IMG/VR virus record: IMGVR_UViG_3300004460_000357 | Coordinates: 1 to 39,621 of that record | DNA: 39,621 nucleotides | Origin: a virus | Strand: one strand, 5' to 3' | Shown: positions 1-39,621 of the stretch, one piece after another | Position numbering within the stretch: the first letter of the stretch is position 1 | How the letters are laid out: each line of letters opens with the position of its first letter | Translations under genes and position numbers: made by a program | Notes under the pieces: model-generated | The model's input: the letters and a program-made list of their open reading frames with translations, nothing else | Databases searched by the model: none | What the model was told of the DNA's origin: nothing

Positions 1-98
1 CGCCTGAGCCAACGCCTGAGCCTATTAAAGCTGTTAATAGGCCGCCAAAAGCACCGGCTAGACCTAAAGCAAAAAGTAAGACTAATGCACCTAAGTAA
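1..98 (+). CDS. C-terminal end of deoxynucleoside monophosphate kinase (continues from the right end of the window)
   Basis: This is the tail of the kinase that begins at 39098. Bases 1-13 are identical to bases 39609-39621. When those copies are merged, the reading frame runs on without a stop: Thr-Pro-Glu-Pro repeats, then a Lys/Pro/Ala-rich tail ending in NAPK and a TAA stop at 96-98. The repeat unit is 12 nt long. The tail looks unstructured and basic and is not part of the kinase fold. The last four codons and the stop overlap the start of the next gene by 14 nt, so the two are probably translationally coupled. The exact number of TPEP repeats is uncertain because the sequence was cut inside the repeat. 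Confidence 0.85.
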   Translation, partial: PEPTPEPIKAVNRPPKAPARPKAKSKTNAPK

Positions 99-534
99 GT
101 GGGATAAACGATTCTTTACCCTAGCTAGCGAAGTTGCTAGTTGGAGTAAAGATCCTAATAAACAAGTTGGCGCAGTAGCTATATCTGCAGACAAACGCAG
201 AATTAGCTATGGTTACAACGGTTTTCCTTCTGCTATTCAAGATACTGAACAACGGCTTAGCAATAAAGAAGTTAAAAACAGTTTATCTTTACACGCAGAA
301 GTTAACGCTATTTTAAACGCAAAAGAAAACTTAGCTGGCTGGACTATTTATTGCAGTGAAGCTATTTGTGCTAATTGTGCCTTGATTATTATTCAAGCAG
401 GTGTAACAAAAGTCGTAATGCCTGCAATAAAAGCTAATAGCACATGGAAAGATTCTTGTGAACGCGCTATAATTATGTTCAATGAAGCAAATGTTGAGCT
501 AACCTTAATTAATGAGATACCTTATTATGTCTAA
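85..534 (+). CDS. Deoxycytidylate (dCMP) deaminase
   Basis: The 149-residue protein is a zinc-dependent cytidine-deaminase-fold enzyme that converts dCMP to dUMP. The zinc site is clear: HAE at residues 70-72 (His ligand and catalytic Glu) and Cys95-x-x-Cys98. An N-terminal segment with KDPNKQVGAV and GYNG is typical of the ComE/T4 Cd family. The usual PC before the last cysteine pair is replaced by AIC-A-N-C. The start overlaps the end of the kinase gene by 14 nt and the stop overlaps the next gene by 8 nt. In this nucleotide-metabolism operon it supplies dUMP for thymidylate and competes for dCMP with the ThyA-fold enzyme at 38295-39098. Confidence 0.92.
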   Translation: MHLSKWDKRFFTLASEVASWSKDPNKQVGAVAISADKRRISYGYNGFPSAIQDTEQRLSNKEVKNSLSLHAEVNAILNAKENLAGWTIYCSEAICANCALIIIQAGVTKVVMPAIKANSTWKDSCERAIIMFNEANVELTLINEIPYYV

Positions 535-26639: not shown

Positions 26640-27080
26640 ATGTCAAATTCAAATGTTAAAAAAGTATACATCCCTTTAATTGAACTTCTTGAAGCAAACA
26701 AGAATAAGTCCATAAAAACGCTAATGCCTGAAATACTTGCGTTGACACAATCCAAAACACAAGCTAAGACTTATAGAGTTAACGAGAATGGCGAAGTCAC
26801 TCACGTATTCTGCTACTACCATAAACTATGGGAAGACGTTAGCATCGCAGAGTATGGAGCTAAGGCTAAAACAGCCTCTGGTCTCAATACCATGTGCAAA
26901 GAAGGCTTATCAAATTGGTCTAAACAACAACGTGATTACAAGAAAGCAAAATCACAGATATTAGATCAAGTTGTCGCCGGTACACTATCAGCCGATAAAG
27001 TTGAAGACACTTTGCATGACTTAGAGCAAGCTAAAGATCAAATTGTGCTTCGTGAAGACGGTCACGGCGAAGCAGAGTAA
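26640..27080 (+). CDS. Conserved early protein, paralogue of the gene at 35110
   Basis: The 146-residue protein is unrecognised but shares with the 166-residue product at 35110 the pattern GxVTHxxCxYxKxW, then GAKAxxASGxxxMxKEGxSxWSKQQRxxKKxK, and a C-terminal acidic helix. Both begin with a VKK.Y..LIE.L helix. The central Gly/Ser/Lys block and charged helix suggest nucleic-acid or protein binding. Each paralogue is the first gene after a TTTACA-N17-(T/C)ATAAT promoter, so both are probably expressed immediately after infection. Confidence 0.75.
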   Translation: MSNSNVKKVYIPLIELLEANKNKSIKTLMPEILALTQSKTQAKTYRVNENGEVTHVFCYYHKLWEDVSIAEYGAKAKTASGLNTMCKEGLSNWSKQQRDYKKAKSQILDQVVAGTLSADKVEDTLHDLEQAKDQIVLREDGHGEAE

Positions 27081-27086
27081 TTAGCT

Positions 27087-27557
27087 ATGTTAACACCACA
27101 ACTCATTAGCTACATTGATAAGCTGTCTAAAGAAGAGTTGGCTAATCAGCTCTTCATAGATAGCACAACTAGAGTACTGAATCGCAACGCCTATAACTTG
27201 GCTAAAGCTAAGAAATATGTCAGCATAATCGACTTAGACTCTTTAAAGTATATCAATGATAGCATCAGCCATAGAAAAGGCGACATCCTATTATTAAAAC
27301 TTGCAACACTACTGAGCAAGAATTTTAGTGACGTTTACCGTATCTCTGGCGATGAATTTGTGGTATTATCAGATTGTAACATTAACCCACAGCTTAAAGC
27401 TCTCCAGCATCAGTTTAAGATATTCAGCTTTGGTACTTCTACAACACTAGACAAGGCTGATTTAAAATTGCAAGCGGATAAACAACAGCGAGAGTCTTCA
27501 GGATTAAGAGCTCAACGAGGAGAACAACCGCCATGGTACCAGACGCATATTTCTTAG
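27087..27557 (+). CDS. Minimal stand-alone GGDEF-domain protein (diguanylate-cyclase-like)
   Basis: The 156-residue protein has the GGDEF signature set: DSTTRVLNR (25-33; usually DxLTGLxNR), IDLDSLKYINDS (48-59; metal-binding Asp49, Lys54, base-binding Asn57), SHRKGD (61-66), and the active-site loop RISGDEF (85-91). FSFGTS (113-118) and ADLKLQADKQ (124-133) match the family's C-terminal strand and helix. There is no sensory domain and no RxxD inhibitory site before the motif. The segment after SGDEF is shorter than in bacterial enzymes. It could make c-di-GMP or another cyclic dinucleotide, or bind GTP only. The 3' end overlaps the next gene by 25 nt. Confidence 0.8.
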   Translation: MLTPQLISYIDKLSKEELANQLFIDSTTRVLNRNAYNLAKAKKYVSIIDLDSLKYINDSISHRKGDILLLKLATLLSKNFSDVYRISGDEFVVLSDCNINPQLKALQHQFKIFSFGTSTTLDKADLKLQADKQQRESSGLRAQRGEQPPWYQTHIS

Positions 27558-28794: not shown

Positions 28795-28893
28795 ATGATA
28801 CTACTAGCGCTCGCAATTGCAACAGTAGCTGGCTGGTTACCGCTAACGTGGGCGCTAGTAGCTGTTATACTTTATATATGGTTAGGTAATTAA
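28795..28893 (+). CDS. Small membrane peptide
   Basis: The 32-residue frame is a single hydrophobic helix (MILLALAIATVAGWLPLTWA…). The start follows the preceding stop directly, with GAGGAAAG upstream as a good ribosome-binding site. The stop overlaps the next ATG (TAATG), so it is translationally coupled to the DnaA-like gene. Confidence 0.55.
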   Translation: MILLALAIATVAGWLPLTWALVAVILYIWLGN

Positions 28894-29330
28894 TGAATTT
28901 ATTTAAACTTACAACTAAAGACGGTGAACAATATTTGTTAGCTAATAACATGACTGTTGCGCTGTCTAGATATGAAACAGGCTATGTTACTAGTATAGAA
29001 CACTTGTCAGACAATGTCATAACAGTCAGCGAAAACAACACTGTTATAGCACCAAGCGAGTTACTTTACACTTTTTGTACAGTTAATAAGTTAAACATAG
29101 AGGCAGTGCAAAGTGCAGATAGATCAAAATATTTAGCTGAAGCTAGGAGAACTATAGCGTATTTATTAGAAACAGAATTAGCTTGCTCATTGAGTAGAAT
29201 TGCTGGGTTAATAAATAAAGACCATACTAGCGTAATGCATTACAAAGCTAGTATGGTCAAACAGCTGGAAGCTAAAGAAGGATTAGCTTATGAGTATTTA
29301 ATGAATTATTACAATGCTACGGCAGAATAA
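28893..29330 (+). CDS. DnaA domain IV-like DNA-binding protein
   Basis: The 145-residue protein ends in a helix-turn-helix close to DnaA domain IV: an entry helix (LLYTFCTVNKLNIEAVQS), then YLAEARRTIAYLLETELACSLSRIAGLINKDHTSVMHY. KDHTSVMHY matches the DnaA signature RDHTTVLHA that reads the DnaA box. The ATPase domain is absent; the N terminus (residues 1-60) is a different beta-rich domain. It may bind phage or host origins, or compete with host DnaA. It is last in its block, and its 3' end overlaps the opposing dUTPase-like gene by 14 nt. Confidence 0.78.
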   Translation: MNLFKLTTKDGEQYLLANNMTVALSRYETGYVTSIEHLSDNVITVSENNTVIAPSELLYTFCTVNKLNIEAVQSADRSKYLAEARRTIAYLLETELACSLSRIAGLINKDHTSVMHYKASMVKQLEAKEGLAYEYLMNYYNATAE

Positions 29331-29964
29331 TGCGATCTGCTACTTTGTTAGCATAATGCCACTCAAGCTTTTTATACAGCTCTTTAAATGTCATATCCTT
29401 ATTAGCGCCGTAAATTTCCATCATAACAGCATTATCTTCGCAGCCATTCCAATCTTTTTTATACGTACCCTCAAGGTAACCGTTATTCCAACGGAACATG
29501 TTGAGGGTATTTTTAATCATATACACCCAGTAAATTTCTTTTAAATCCATACCATAGACTAAACAAATAGCTAAGAATAGATCTATCCTCCAGACTCCAT
29601 CAGATAGCCCAGCAGCCAAGAATTCTTTTAAGTTGATACAAACATCAGAATTGTCTAAATCTTCGTAGGTGTAGCTATGCTCGACCGCATCTTGAATATC
29701 TGCAACAATGTCTTTTTCAATACCGTCAATTAAATAGCAGTTCATCATAAAGTGCCATATATCAATAAGCTCAATACGAACATTATCATAGTCGATCTCA
29801 GAGTGCTTCCACCATTTAAATCCTAAGGCATCTAGTAATTCACCTGTTTCAACTATAATAGCTTGAGCTTGATCCCACGGCTGTTGCTTCCATTGTGGGT
29901 GCAACTTAGTCTGTAAAGCGTTTTGCATTGTAAGCATTTCTTGCATCAATTGTTGATCATTCAT
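29317..29964 (-). CDS. Dimeric dUTPase/dCTPase-type nucleotide pyrophosphatase
   Basis: The 215-residue protein has the all-alpha dUTPase_2 pattern: IIVETGELLDALGFKWWK (residues about 36-53) with the metal-binding ExxE, ELIDIWHFMMN (about 65-75) with ExxD, and YMIKNTLNMFRWNNGYLEGTYKK near the C terminus (KNxxN and GYxxGxYKK). It hydrolyses dUTP, and perhaps dCTP, to the monophosphate; T4 gp56, which removes dCTP in a modified-cytosine phage, has been placed in the same superfamily. It is the last gene of the leftward replication block and converges on the DnaA-like gene. Confidence 0.85.
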   Translation of the reverse strand: MNDQQLMQEMLTMQNALQTKLHPQWKQQPWDQAQAIIVETGELLDALGFKWWKHSEIDYDNVRIELIDIWHFMMNCYLIDGIEKDIVADIQDAVEHSYTYEDLDNSDVCINLKEFLAAGLSDGVWRIDLFLAICLVYGMDLKEIYWVYMIKNTLNMFRWNNGYLEGTYKKDWNGCEDNAVMMEIYGANKDMTFKELYKKLEWHYANKVADRIILP

Positions 29965-33904: not shown

Positions 33905-34127
33905 TCCGACTACCTCTATTAAGCATTTGTGACTTAAAAGACAGCACAGGAAAACCGCGGTAAAACATAAACGGTTTAGCGCCGGTCAGTTGAGGATGAG
34001 TAGTATCAGCTTTGAATAAATGCCTAAGATCATCAGCATGAACTAGTAACTTAGTTATGCGTAATTGCTTTGCTTGGCGTTGCTCTATATAAGCATCTAA
34101 GCGATCAAAAATGTTAGTCTTTTTCAT
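33897..34127 (-). CDS. Small protein of unknown function
   Basis: The 76-residue protein has a helical charged N terminus (MKKTNIFDRLDAYIEQRQAKQLR) and a second half with LTGAKPFMFYRGFPVLSF. No family is recognised. It overlaps the glycosylase gene by 14 nt and the ATPase gene by 8 nt, and so is part of the same leftward unit. Confidence 0.6.
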   Translation of the reverse strand: MKKTNIFDRLDAYIEQRQAKQLRITKLLVHADDLRHLFKADTTHPQLTGAKPFMFYRGFPVLSFKSQMLNRGSRNV

Positions 34128-34467
34128 TATTGTATTCCTTGTAACGGAGAGTACAGTTAGGACAGCGGTTTAATAAATCTTGCAATGCAGATTTACGGTT
34201 TATCTTAGTTAACAGTACGCCACGAGGCAACATAGCTAAATTAGGCTCAATAAGTGGCGACTCGTGTTTCATACCACGATTAAGCATTTCGGCAGCTAAT
34301 TCATCATGGCGCTGCACAAGTGCTTTAGGTTCTGCTTGGTTCATTATAGAATGACCGGCAATAGATTTGCCTTTATTAATAGCGCCAACAAACATATGGC
34401 ATTCTACATGCTCGCCGCCAAGATGTTTATTGCACAGTATCTGAGGTGGAACCATCCACATTCTCAT
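34114..34467 (-). CDS. Pyrimidine-dimer DNA glycosylase-like protein (DenV-related)
   Basis: The 117-residue protein matches the PF03013-type family: MRMWMVPPQILCNKHLGGEHVE at the N terminus, HMFVGAINKGKSIAGH, and QRHDELAAEMLNRGMKHESPL. By alignment Glu22 corresponds to the catalytic Glu23 of T4 DenV. DenV uses the amine of Thr2; here residue 2 is Arg, so the chemistry may differ. A Cys pair lies at the C terminus (RCPNCTLRYKE). It would begin excision repair of UV dimers in phage DNA. The start overlaps the upstream stop as ATGA. Confidence 0.75.
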   Translation of the reverse strand: MRMWMVPPQILCNKHLGGEHVECHMFVGAINKGKSIAGHSIMNQAEPKALVQRHDELAAEMLNRGMKHESPLIEPNLAMLPRGVLLTKINRKSALQDLLNRCPNCTLRYKEYNNEKD

Positions 34468-35109: not shown

Positions 35110-35610
35110 ATGTCAGTTAAAAAAGCTTATGCAAATCTTATCGAATTTTTAAAAGTAAACGAAGACAAAAAAGTAAAAACAATTCTTGATGAAGTGGTTA
35201 CTATGTGTTCGGCTAAATCTGCCGGCTCTTCTGCTACTACTGTCCATCGTGATGAAGCTGGTATCGTTACTCACATTCGTTGTGGTTACTTCAAACAATG
35301 GCTGCCTATATCTCATGTTGAGTTTGGCGCAAAAGCAGGTTCCGCATCTGGTTTCAGCCCGATGAGTAAAGAAGGTACTTCTTTATGGTCTAAACAGCAA
35401 CGCGAAGCTAAAAAGTCAAAAGAAGACTTGCTACAAGGTGTTGCTTCTGGTGAAGTTGAAGCTTCTGATTTGGCTAATCGTTTAGAGCAAATTGAAGAAA
35501 CTCGTACTAGCACTTACAGTCATCCGTTAGGAACTGACACTGTTGAAGAAGCAATCGCGTTAACTTCTGCAGATTTAGATGCTATGTGTGAAGCAGAAGC
35601 CGCTGAATAA
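35110..35610 (+). CDS. Conserved early protein, paralogue of the gene at 26640
   Basis: The 166-residue protein shares the GAKA..ASG...M.KEG.S.WSKQQR..KK.K block (residues about 76-106) with the 146-residue product at 26640, and differs by an extended acidic C terminus (EAIALTSADLDAMCEAEAAE). It has a strong ribosome-binding site (CGGAG) and is followed at once by an intrinsic terminator, so it can be made as a short, abundant transcript. Function unknown; a DNA-binding or host-takeover role fits the expression pattern. Confidence 0.78.
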   Translation: MSVKKAYANLIEFLKVNEDKKVKTILDEVVTMCSAKSAGSSATTVHRDEAGIVTHIRCGYFKQWLPISHVEFGAKAGSASGFSPMSKEGTSLWSKQQREAKKSKEDLLQGVASGEVEASDLANRLEQIEETRTSTYSHPLGTDTVEEAIALTSADLDAMCEAEAAE

Positions 35611-36616: not shown

Positions 36617-38290
36617 ATGAGCGAAATATACAACGTAGTGTCACTAGATACTATAGCTAAAAGTATAGACCCTTCCCAAGACCTTGCTTTCGATACGGAA
36701 ACCGTTGGAAAGTATGGTAGAATCCGACTGGCCCAATTTTATCAACGCCATTGGCCAAAAGCTTTAATGGTAGATTCACCGTCCATTTTTGAACTTTTTC
36801 AACTATTAGTTTCTTTAAAAGACACTAACATAGTTATGCAGTATTGTTCTTACGATATTAGTACAGTACAAAAACAAACAGGCAGCCGATGGGTACCGCA
36901 AACATTTAACGATACTTTTTTGCTTGCCAGATTAGCGTTACCGCAATTAAGTAAGTACAGTTTAGATGAACTTATTAATTACGCAATAGGACATGATCCT
37001 TATGCCGCAGCTAATATAGTTAAAGCAGATATGCACAAACTAAATTGGGGTAAGCTAATTCTTGAGCCAAAAGAATTGCTTTATGCGGCGTTAGATGTTT
37101 ATTACTTATTTGATCTTTATGACAAAGTAAAAATAGCAGAAGACACCTTATCATATAAAGTAGACATGCGCGCATTAAGGCGAGCACTAGACTTCCAGAA
37201 TAACGGATTTTGTGTCGACCAAGATCGAATAGAGCTCCAGTATGCTTCTAATTTGGCTCGTATCAAAGAAATAGCTTTACCTATTAATGCAAACAGCTGG
37301 AAACAAGTTAGACCTTACATTGGCTCTGAGAACTCCGATGACCTTGGTTTAGCTAAGCTTTCTATGAACGGCAATGACAAAGCTGCAGCTGTTCGCGAAA
37401 CTAGAAAGCTGTTAAAGCAAAATTCATTTTTAGACAAATTTAGCACTGACGACGGTCGTATTTATGGACATTTTGCGCCTTCAGCTCGTTCTGGCCGTTT
37501 TACTTGCTCTAACCAAAATTTGCAACAATTACCTAGAGCAACTAAGGGTTGCTTCGGTGTGCCTGAAGGCAGGGTGTTACTGTATTCGGATTATGCTCAA
37601 CTTGAGCTAAGAACTGTTGCAGCCATCACCGGCGATCGTACTTTGTGCCAGTTGTTTTATGACAATGCTGATCCTCATAATCACGTAGCTAAGTTTGTAT
37701 TTGGCGAAAACTTTACTAAAGATCATCGTCAAACCACTAAAACGATAAACTTTAATGCATTGTATGGTGGTGGTGCTGGCATGCTGCAAGGTATTCTTTT
37801 AAAGCAAGCAAATCAGTGGTTAGAAATTGATGAAATAAAAGCTATCATGCGTAAATGGCGGCGAATATTTCCTGGCATTGTTGGCTGGCAAGAAAAAGGT
37901 ATCGGTGATTATAACAAAGGTAGACTAGGCTCCACGCCATTTGGTCGACAATATCGCGGTAATCTGATGACAGATCAGCTAAATATTGCTAACCAAGGTT
38001 TTGGCGCTGACATAGCTAAGTTAGCTTTGCATTATATGTACGATGACTTGTTGGCTAATGATGCGCAACTAGTTAATTTCATTCACGATTCTTACATAAT
38101 TGAAATGCCCGATGACGAAATAGCGTATAAAAAGGTTGCTAAATTAGCGGCCGAAGCTATGAAAGAAGCGTGGATTGAAGGGTCTAAAATGGCCAAAGTT
38201 ACTGATATACCTATGCCAGTTGAAATAGGTGTAGGCAGTAACTGGGGCGACTTGGAAGCAGGTAATACAATTTATTCACTAACGGTATAA
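36617..38290 (+). CDS. Family A DNA polymerase with 3'-5' exonuclease
   Basis: The 557-residue enzyme has exonuclease motifs FDTET (Asp26, Glu28), QYCSYDIS and YAALD, then polymerase motif A YSDYAQLELR (Asp325), motif B RQTTKTINFNALYG (371-384) and motif C HDS (490-492). Motif B has Phe379 at the position equal to E. coli Phe762. Motif C has Ser in place of the usual Glu of HDE. It is shorter than T7 polymerase and lacks the long thumb insert that binds thioredoxin. A strong GAGGAG site precedes the ATG. It is the replicative polymerase. Confidence 0.95.
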   Translation: MSEIYNVVSLDTIAKSIDPSQDLAFDTETVGKYGRIRLAQFYQRHWPKALMVDSPSIFELFQLLVSLKDTNIVMQYCSYDISTVQKQTGSRWVPQTFNDTFLLARLALPQLSKYSLDELINYAIGHDPYAAANIVKADMHKLNWGKLILEPKELLYAALDVYYLFDLYDKVKIAEDTLSYKVDMRALRRALDFQNNGFCVDQDRIELQYASNLARIKEIALPINANSWKQVRPYIGSENSDDLGLAKLSMNGNDKAAAVRETRKLLKQNSFLDKFSTDDGRIYGHFAPSARSGRFTCSNQNLQQLPRATKGCFGVPEGRVLLYSDYAQLELRTVAAITGDRTLCQLFYDNADPHNHVAKFVFGENFTKDHRQTTKTINFNALYGGGAGMLQGILLKQANQWLEIDEIKAIMRKWRRIFPGIVGWQEKGIGDYNKGRLGSTPFGRQYRGNLMTDQLNIANQGFGADIAKLALHYMYDDLLANDAQLVNFIHDSYIIEMPDDEIAYKKVAKLAAEAMKEAWIEGSKMAKVTDIPMPVEIGVGSNWGDLEAGNTIYSLTV

Positions 38291-38294
38291 AATT

Positions 38295-39098
38295 ATGAGT
38301 TATGAACAAGACTATGCCACTTTAGTTGAGTCCATCTTAGCTGACGGTATTTATAGAGAAACAAGAAACAAGCCAACATATTCACTGTTCGGTAAAACAC
38401 TATTTATAGACGAATTAACTCGTGGCGAATTTCCAATGCTAAGTGGGCGTAAACTGTTCCACAAAGGCGTAATTGGAGAATTCGCCGCCTTTCTTCATGG
38501 GGTCAAAACAATCGAAGACTTTGAAAAATTCGGCTGCAACTACTGGTCTAAGTGGGCAGATCAAAATGGTAACTTAAATGTAGACTATGGTAATGTTTGG
38601 CGCAATTTTGAAGGCTTTAATCAATTAGCTGCTGTAATCGACCAGTTAAAAGCAGACCCCGCAGGCAGACGACACTTAATATCTGGCTGGCGTCCGCATA
38701 AATTAGCCGAACTGTCTTTGCCTTGTTGCCATCTGTTATATCAATGGTATGTTAATGCTGAGACCAATGAGCTAGAAATGATTTGGTATCAGCGATCTGT
38801 TGATACTATGGTTGGCTTGCCTTCTGATGTTATTCTTGCGGCTTTATGGAATTGCTTAATGGCATTCGAAACAGGCTATAAACCTGGTCGCATTATTATG
38901 ATGCTAGGTGATACCCATATTTATGCTCCGCATGCAAATAATGCGCACGAGTATGTAGATCGCGTTAGTGGAGAATTGCCACCCTCTCCTAGATACGGAA
39001 TAGCTGATGGCGCTAATTTCGATAATTTTAACCCTAGCCATTTTAATCTTTACAATTACAATCCATTAACTAAACTAGACTTTGAGGTGTTTGAATAA
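38295..39098 (+). CDS. ThyA-fold enzyme, probably dCMP hydroxymethylase (or related dCMP methylase)
   Basis: The 267-residue protein has the ThyA core: Arg24, Glu62, Trp84/Trp87, RRHLISGW (125-132), catalytic Cys145 in CCHLLYQ, YQRSVD (165-170), and GDTHIY (205-210). The block that is GLPFN in thymidylate synthase is GLPSD here (174-178), so Asp178 replaces the Asn (E. coli Asn177) that reads uracil. Asp at this place is the hallmark of T4 dCMP hydroxymethylase (Asp179), and Asn-to-Asp makes thymidylate synthase act on dCMP. The RTGTG loop is RNKPT, and the C terminus lacks the PVAI-type end. It overlaps the kinase start by 1 nt. Other reading: a divergent thymidylate synthase. Confidence 0.85.
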   Translation: MSYEQDYATLVESILADGIYRETRNKPTYSLFGKTLFIDELTRGEFPMLSGRKLFHKGVIGEFAAFLHGVKTIEDFEKFGCNYWSKWADQNGNLNVDYGNVWRNFEGFNQLAAVIDQLKADPAGRRHLISGWRPHKLAELSLPCCHLLYQWYVNAETNELEMIWYQRSVDTMVGLPSDVILAALWNCLMAFETGYKPGRIIMMLGDTHIYAPHANNAHEYVDRVSGELPPSPRYGIADGANFDNFNPSHFNLYNYNPLTKLDFEVFE

Positions 39099-39621
39099 TG
39101 AATAAGTTACCTACAGTATTACTAATCGGTGAGAGCGGTGCAGGCAAAGACGAAGTAGCTAAACTATTAGCTAAGCACTACGGTTTTCGCTTTGCGCCTA
39201 CTTCTTACATTGCGTGCGAACAATTTGTGTTTGAAAAATTAAGCGACAAGTACGACACCATTGAAGCTTGTTATGAAGATCGCCGCAATAATATGCAATT
39301 GTGGAAAGACCTGATTGCAGAATTCAATACGCCAGATAAAGCTAAGCTGGCTAAAAAATCCTTAAAAGTTAGTGACATTTATTCTGGTATTCGCAAACGC
39401 GATGAATTTGACGCAGCTAAAAGCTTATTTGATGTAGTTGTTTACGTAAATGCTGAAGATCGTATTGGCAAAATTAGCGATTCTATTGTCGAGCTATCAA
39501 GGGCTGATTCAGACTTAACAATAAATAATAACGGCACAATTAAACAGCTATCGCAATCAGTTAAGCGACTGTATGCTAAATTAGTTAACTTTGAAGCCAC
39601 TGAGCCAACGCCTGAGCCAAC
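39098..39621 (+). CDS. Deoxynucleoside monophosphate kinase (N-terminal part; gene runs off the window)
   Basis: The visible 174 codons encode a P-loop kinase: LIGESGAGKDEVAKLLAKH (Walker A, residues about 8-26), YSGIRKRDEFDAAKSLFDVVVYVNA (about 88-112; NMP-binding Arg residues) and SDLTINNNGTIKQL, as in T4 gp1-type dNMP kinases, which phosphorylate dTMP, dGMP and hydroxymethyl-dCMP. Directly after the ThyA-fold gene (TAATG overlap), it would convert that enzyme's product to the diphosphate. After residue 166 comes a TPEP repeat that continues at base 1 of the window to the stop at 96-98. Confidence 0.85.
   Translation, partial: MNKLPTVLLIGESGAGKDEVAKLLAKHYGFRFAPTSYIACEQFVFEKLSDKYDTIEACYEDRRNNMQLWKDLIAEFNTPDKAKLAKKSLKVSDIYSGIRKRDEFDAAKSLFDVVVYVNAEDRIGKISDSIVELSRADSDLTINNNGTIKQLSQSVKRLYAKLVNFEATEPTPEP

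Follow-up and report, generated by a model that had tools for sequence, protein, structure and literature searches.

The open reading frame near the end of the window, that is, the whole 39,621-nt stretch of the IMG/VR record IMGVR_UViG_3300004460_000357 (positions 1 to 39,621), raises the question of which nucleotide its product modifies and what it makes of it. The frame is intact and encodes a protein of 267 amino acids, which matches the Pfam family Thymidylat_synt (PF00303) with 210.9 bits and also exceeds the cut-off of the NCBI thymidylate synthase model TIGR03284; plain thymidylate synthase is the label obtained from both sets of models. An initial annotation had proposed a T4-like dCMP hydroxymethylase serving a cytosine-modification pathway. 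On the evidence below, we consider it reasonably probable that the gene encodes a dCMP C5-methylase making 5-methyl-dCMP, and that the virion DNA contains 5-methylcytosine (5mC).

Table 1. Positions in the window of the synthase gene, of its diagnostic codons and of the genes considered with it.
Feature	Position	Strand	Basis
ThyA-fold enzyme, predicted dCMP C5-methylase	38295..39098	+	PF00303, alignments, residue survey, AF2 model
Asp97 codon, clade-invariant, Val93 in EcThyA	38583..38585	+	residue survey
Leu142 codon, three before Cys145; Asp in known hydroxymethylases	38718..38720	+	residue survey; PMC6400193
Catalytic Cys145 codon	38727..38729	+	alignment
Asp178 codon, predicted cytosine-reading residue (EcThyA Asn177 site)	38826..38828	+	alignment, residue survey
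dNMP kinase-like (gp1 type)	39098..39621, continuing 1..98 across circular junction	+	phrog_139 9e-13, PF21448 weak
dCMP deaminase	85..534	+	PF00383 1.3e-18, phrog_174 1.4e-36
dUTPase_2-type NTP pyrophosphohydrolase, candidate dCTPase/dUTPase	29317..29964	-	PF08761 1.6e-24
Family A DNA polymerase, upstream of synthase, would need to use modified dCTP	36617..38290	+	PF00476

The protein was aligned from end to end with EcThyA (264 amino acids). Asp178 was found opposite Asn177 of EcThyA and Asp179 of T4 gp42, and Cys145 is kept together with Arg167, Ser168, Asp170, His208, Tyr210, Arg125/126, Glu62, Trp84 and Tyr98; on both points the initial annotation was borne out. It had also described the C-terminal tail and the RTGTG loop as lost. 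The tail, however, aligns with that of ThyA, follows a motif kept throughout the clade (..[IL]xFELxx, with letters that differ from ThyA) and is confidently modelled by AF2, and the loop is rather altered (RNKP-T), one residue shorter and with its Arg kept. The AF2 model (pLDDT 95.8) resembles ThyA with a TM of 0.9, and its best PDB matches are closed thymidylate synthase complexes. Among the PDB matches of the protein sequence, the third best is the L. casei entry 1njc, of which the aligned chain reads Asp at the base-reading site and which we take to be the N229D mutant of L. casei thymidylate synthase.

The clade of the window enzyme was collected from IMG/VR, GTDB contigs and named phages, which gave 91 open reading frames, some of them near-copies (L-numbers below denote loci). 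Asp occupies the 177/178 site in 89 of them and Asn in the two others (L011 and L038). As a control, viral synthases were scanned for the canonical GLPF[N/D]I motif, the pattern admitting either residue at the base-reading site; all 120 viral matches had Asn, and 119 of them carried the RSxD motif in frame. The occurrence of Asp in the clade (89/91 versus 0/119) is more than chance. The change of Asn to Asp is known to shift ThyA from dUMP to dCMP, giving a dCMP methylase (PMC8670742). Because of the contrast between the clade and the canonical viral synthases, dCMP is the likely substrate of the window enzyme. In the MetaGPA study, Asp177 synthases were linked with phage contigs carrying modified cytosine, and position 147 differed between modified and unmodified contigs (PMC8670742). 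His146 is retained in the window enzyme and its clade, unlike this variation, which counts against the methylase reading, and since the clade keeps His at the variable site, MetaGPA is no proof that the clade belongs to its modified set. The td genes of T4-like phages were considered as a counter-example to the meaning of Asp and set aside: T4 td has Asn (1tis), and the only td gene with Asp is L190:1498-2358 (OQ845958.1, T4-like Escherichia phage pEC-M719-6WT.2), whose signatures are otherwise canonical, Asp177 (GLPFDI) being the sole departure.

With dCMP as the likely substrate, methylation and hydroxymethylation have to be told apart. In the ternary complex of T4 gp42, the hydroxymethylase is marked by Asp145 three residues before Cys148, by Ser94 two before Tyr96 and by the absence of a tail; Asp145, contacted by Ser94, activates the water, and the D145N variant gives no product (PMC6400193). 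Three residues before Cys, all 91 clade members have Leu (Leu142 in the window), as in ThyA. Residue comparison showed K-D-x-P-C in SPO1 gp29, annotated as a dUMP hydroxymethylase, and in the M6 homologue, presumably another; since these two share the Asp with T4 gp42, it is a mark of hydroxymethylases of both substrates. The enzymes related to that of Xp12 read K-N-[VI]-P-C, with Asn at this place. Two residues before the active-site Tyr, the window enzyme has Val96 and the clade V, L or I, the T4-type Ser/Thr being absent.

The clade thus appears to combine a cytosine-reading Asp with a ThyA-like methylation apparatus, and would correspond in nature to the dCMP methylase engineered from the L. 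casei synthase. The hydroxymethylase preferred by the initial annotation was not upheld, because the Asp three before Cys and the Ser two before Tyr are absent and the tail is present; of the two bases that it named, 5-methylcytosine, its second option, is better supported than 5-hydroxymethylcytosine (5hmC). The residue three before Cys could serve as a rule separating methylases from hydroxymethylases among thousands of phage synthases.

The strongest alternative is a dCMP hydroxymethylase working by another route, in which Asp97 would replace T4 Asp145 as the water-activating base and the virion DNA would carry 5hmC without sugar. Asp97 is invariant in the clade, stands directly before the active-site Tyr98 at the Val site of ThyA and is structurally equal to the T4 Ser94 that touches Asp145 (PMC6400193). 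A carboxylate at this place could activate water, which counts against the methylase reading, and Asp178 as well as a gene cassette like those of T4 and Thanatos (PMC12838424) would suit such an enzyme. However, Asp97 is also kept in the Asn-type members, Leu replaces the Asp found in known enzymes of both substrate types, the tail is retained, and dihydrofolate reductase (DHFR) is encoded by some relatives. Carbamoyltransferase and GT2 family proteins, signs of hypermodified 5hmC, were found in 0/49 genomes, and this form of the base was rejected. On balance, hydroxymethylation by Asp97 seems unlikely.

Two trees were built with the signature columns left out. In both, the clade formed one group (support 99-100) beside canonical ThyA and apart from gp42 (100) and from the Xp12-like group (98), while the AU test rejected neither the clade joined with gp42 (p 0.22) nor the clade joined with the Xp12-like group (p 0.19). 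The description as T4-like in the initial annotation is not supported: the marks of gp42 other than the Asp are lacking, and the best tree places the clade next to ThyA and away from gp42, although by the AU test a joint gp42 clade is compatible with the data. Asp177 in the window clade would thus represent a third lineage, likely of separate origin.

Compared with canonical ThyA, its nearest clade, the window enzyme has the same Leu at -3, Cys-His pair, tail and fold, but Asp for Asn177, Asp for Val93 and LPCCH for L[AP]PCH. The laboratory dCMP methylase L. casei N229D likewise has a ThyA frame in which this Asn is replaced by Asp; it was engineered at one residue, whereas the lineage of the window enzyme arose in nature and carries other changes too, such as Asp97. 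With T4 gp42 the likeness extends to the fold, the base-reading Asp, the catalytic core and the functions of neighbouring genes (dCTPase-like, deaminase, dNMP kinase), yet equivalents of Asp145 and Ser94 are missing, the tail is present, the clade is another one and the 49 genomes gave no GT2 glycosyltransferase.

The DNA of Xp12 is fully 5mC and a dCMP methylase activity has been reported (PMC8543423, PMC9206674), while the gene behind this full replacement was called unknown for its relative AXL1 (PMC9206674). The Xp12-type methylase, with AXL1 gp63 and its Mesyanzhinovviridae relatives as putative genes, resembles the window enzyme in Asp177, in the lack of Asp three before Cys and in the tail, and its neighbours include an NTP pyrophosphohydrolase (NTP-PPase) and a dCMP deaminase, as in the window group, with DHFR in AXL1. 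It differs by its separate clade, by Pro after Cys (His in the window), by Asn at -3 (Leu in the window) and by its greater length. AXL1 and its closest kin, siphoviruses of about 65% GC, also differ in this from the window group. By mechanism, the best reading of the window enzyme is a phage dCMP methylase, a known kind, here represented by a new lineage from a new group of viruses. Among the Xp12 relatives themselves, Asp177 without the hydroxymethylase Asp was observed in L091:8623-9564 (AXL1 gp63), L187, L188, L174, L178 and L179, and synthases of the AXL1 gp63 type are, judging from their residues, good candidates for the 5mC gene left open by the AXL1 paper (PMC9206674). A second synthase-like gene, with Asp177 and Asn three before Cys, lies beside a gp42-type hydroxymethylase at L155:1561-2496.

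The contig ends share a 13-bp overlap and the kinase frame continues into the start of the window, indicating a circular junction, which places synthase, kinase and dCMP deaminase in one operon-like row. The neighbours named in the initial annotation, including the dUTPase_2-type enzyme, were all confirmed. One synthase gene per genome was present in 33/33 genomes searched; a "bifunctional DHFR-TS" annotated in MW202744 was discarded, as it did not align as a synthase. The deaminase occurs in 22/24 Asp-type records, being absent from VPMS1 and Kolga, while it is missing in the Asn-type L038 and none was found in the fetched stretch of L011 (Fisher p 0.018, with two Asn-type members, one a 21-kb fragment). 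At L002:10347-10955, L001:10357-11106 and L004:10385-10984 (KF-1, PH1, Amaethon), the deaminase is fused to dGTP_diPhyd_N (PF18909). NTP-PPases of one PRA-PH-type family were found in 37/48 relatives, in many of them adjoining the synthase, and more distant members in both Xp12-like genomes, AXL1 and RDJL6; in the window, L008, L016 and L017, a dUTPase_2 takes their place.

Dihydrofolate is a product of methylation and not of hydroxymethylation. As DHFR is needed only if dihydrofolate is made, its presence in some relatives counts for a methylase: it was found in L069, in the Asn-type L011 and in the sister L008, where it lies next to dUTPase_2 and to a gene identified by eye as a ribonucleotide reductase, and a weak DHFR-like gene directly follows the synthase in L033. 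No DHFR was found in the window itself, which counts against the methylase reading. The domains associated with modification by MetaGPA include PF01503, PF00383, PF14437 and PF14743 (PMC8670742), all of which occur in the window clade. For the Shewanella phage Thanatos, modified cytosine was correctly predicted from three genes, those of a dCTP pyrophosphatase, a deaminase and a hydroxymethylase (PMC12838424).

From the sequence, residues, gene set, phylogeny and palindrome statistics, we infer the following substrate, product and fluxes. The Asp in place of the uracil-reading Asn would allow the ThyA frame to bind dCMP, and the remaining ThyA chemistry (attack by Cys, transfer of the methylene group of CH2-THF, closure of the site by the C-terminal tail and hydride transfer) would yield 5-methyl-dCMP and dihydrofolate. 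The NTP-PPase would lower dCTP and supply dCMP, 5-methyl-dCMP would be phosphorylated to its triphosphate by the dNMP kinase together with kinases of the host, and the PolA-type polymerase would incorporate the modified dCTP, so that virion cytosine would be wholly or partly 5mC. Any excess of 5-methyl-dCMP or dCMP may be converted by the deaminase to dTMP or dUMP.

Avoidance of palindromes is frequent in phages with plain cytosine. It was measured here as the observed/expected ratio (O/E) of 6-mer palindromes containing C or G, which was 0.96 for the window and on average 0.90 (0.77-1.01) for 32 Asp-type loci. The values were similar in the comparators, with 0.97 for T4, 0.91 for AXL1 and 0.92 for DLP4, the last two standing in for Xp12, and nine hand-picked control phages, which we assume to have unmodified cytosine, gave 0.32-0.73. 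For matched hosts, the values were 0.98 for VPMS1 versus 0.33 for VpV262 (V. parahaemolyticus) and 1.01 for Kolga versus 0.32 for HTVC010P (Pelagibacter). A wider set of 120 further podovirus loci softened the contrast, with means of 0.52 for T7-like, 0.50 for VpV262-like and 0.71 (0.40-0.97) for N4-like phages, the last overlapping with the Asp-type values; the Asp-type median was reached by only 1.7% of these controls, the loci within the clade not being independent. The two Asn-type members, at 0.78 and 0.87, fall inside the Asp-type range, which, like the overlap with N4-like phages, counts against the methylase reading. The weak avoidance in the clade suggests protected DNA and, together with Asp178 and the neighbour genes, supports the use of dCMP in a cytosine-modification pathway put forward in the initial annotation.

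A roundabout thymidylate synthesis, in which dCMP would be methylated and 5-methyl-dCMP then deaminated to dTMP, leaving ordinary cytosine in the DNA, is a still less probable explanation. The distribution of the deaminase between Asp-type and Asn-type members points that way, as does the work of Kuo (1982) on Xp12, entitled "A new thymidylate biosynthesis" in the reference list of PMC8543423; however, VPMS1 and Kolga are Asp-type yet have no deaminase, the kinase and NTP-PPase better fit incorporation, and palindrome avoidance is weak. An ordinary dUMP thymidylate synthase tolerating Asp is very improbable: the Pfam and TIGR03284 cut-offs are passed, fold and tail are ThyA-like and Asp also occurs in the td gene L190, but Asn-to-Asp moves ThyA from dUMP to dCMP (PMC8670742) and the clade stands apart from the control synthases in its Asp.

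To return to the dCMP methylase, 5mC would probably hide the virus DNA from host DNA-cutting enzymes. The named isolates in the clade, Edwardsiella KF-1, Vibrio VPMS1, Pseudoalteromonas PH1, Dickeya Amaethon and Pelagibacter Kolga, put the prediction within direct experimental reach; the literature yielded no restriction data for the first four and no DNA analysis of any clade relative. We see about even chances that widespread phages of ~40 kb with Pelagibacter, Vibrio, Edwardsiella, Pseudoalteromonas and Dickeya hosts replace cytosine by 5mC, by means of a dCMP methylase that evolved from ThyA independently of the Xp12 and T4 enzymes, via Asp178 and Asp97. If so, 5mC replacement would be common in small podoviruses whose gene is annotated simply as "thymidylate synthase", with a bearing on their restriction standing, on Type IV (5mC-dependent) restriction and on viral metagenomics.

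Some other genes of the window were also observed. A DenV-like pyrimidine dimer glycosylase (PF03013) is encoded at 34114-34467 (-), and a short, degenerate GGDEF-domain protein at 27087-27557 (+). The small protein at 28893-29330 (+) has a DnaA C-terminal helix-turn-helix (PF08299) and is a possible origin binder. Two paralogues of the uncharacterised family phrog_10459 lie at 26640-27080 and 35110-35610 (+).
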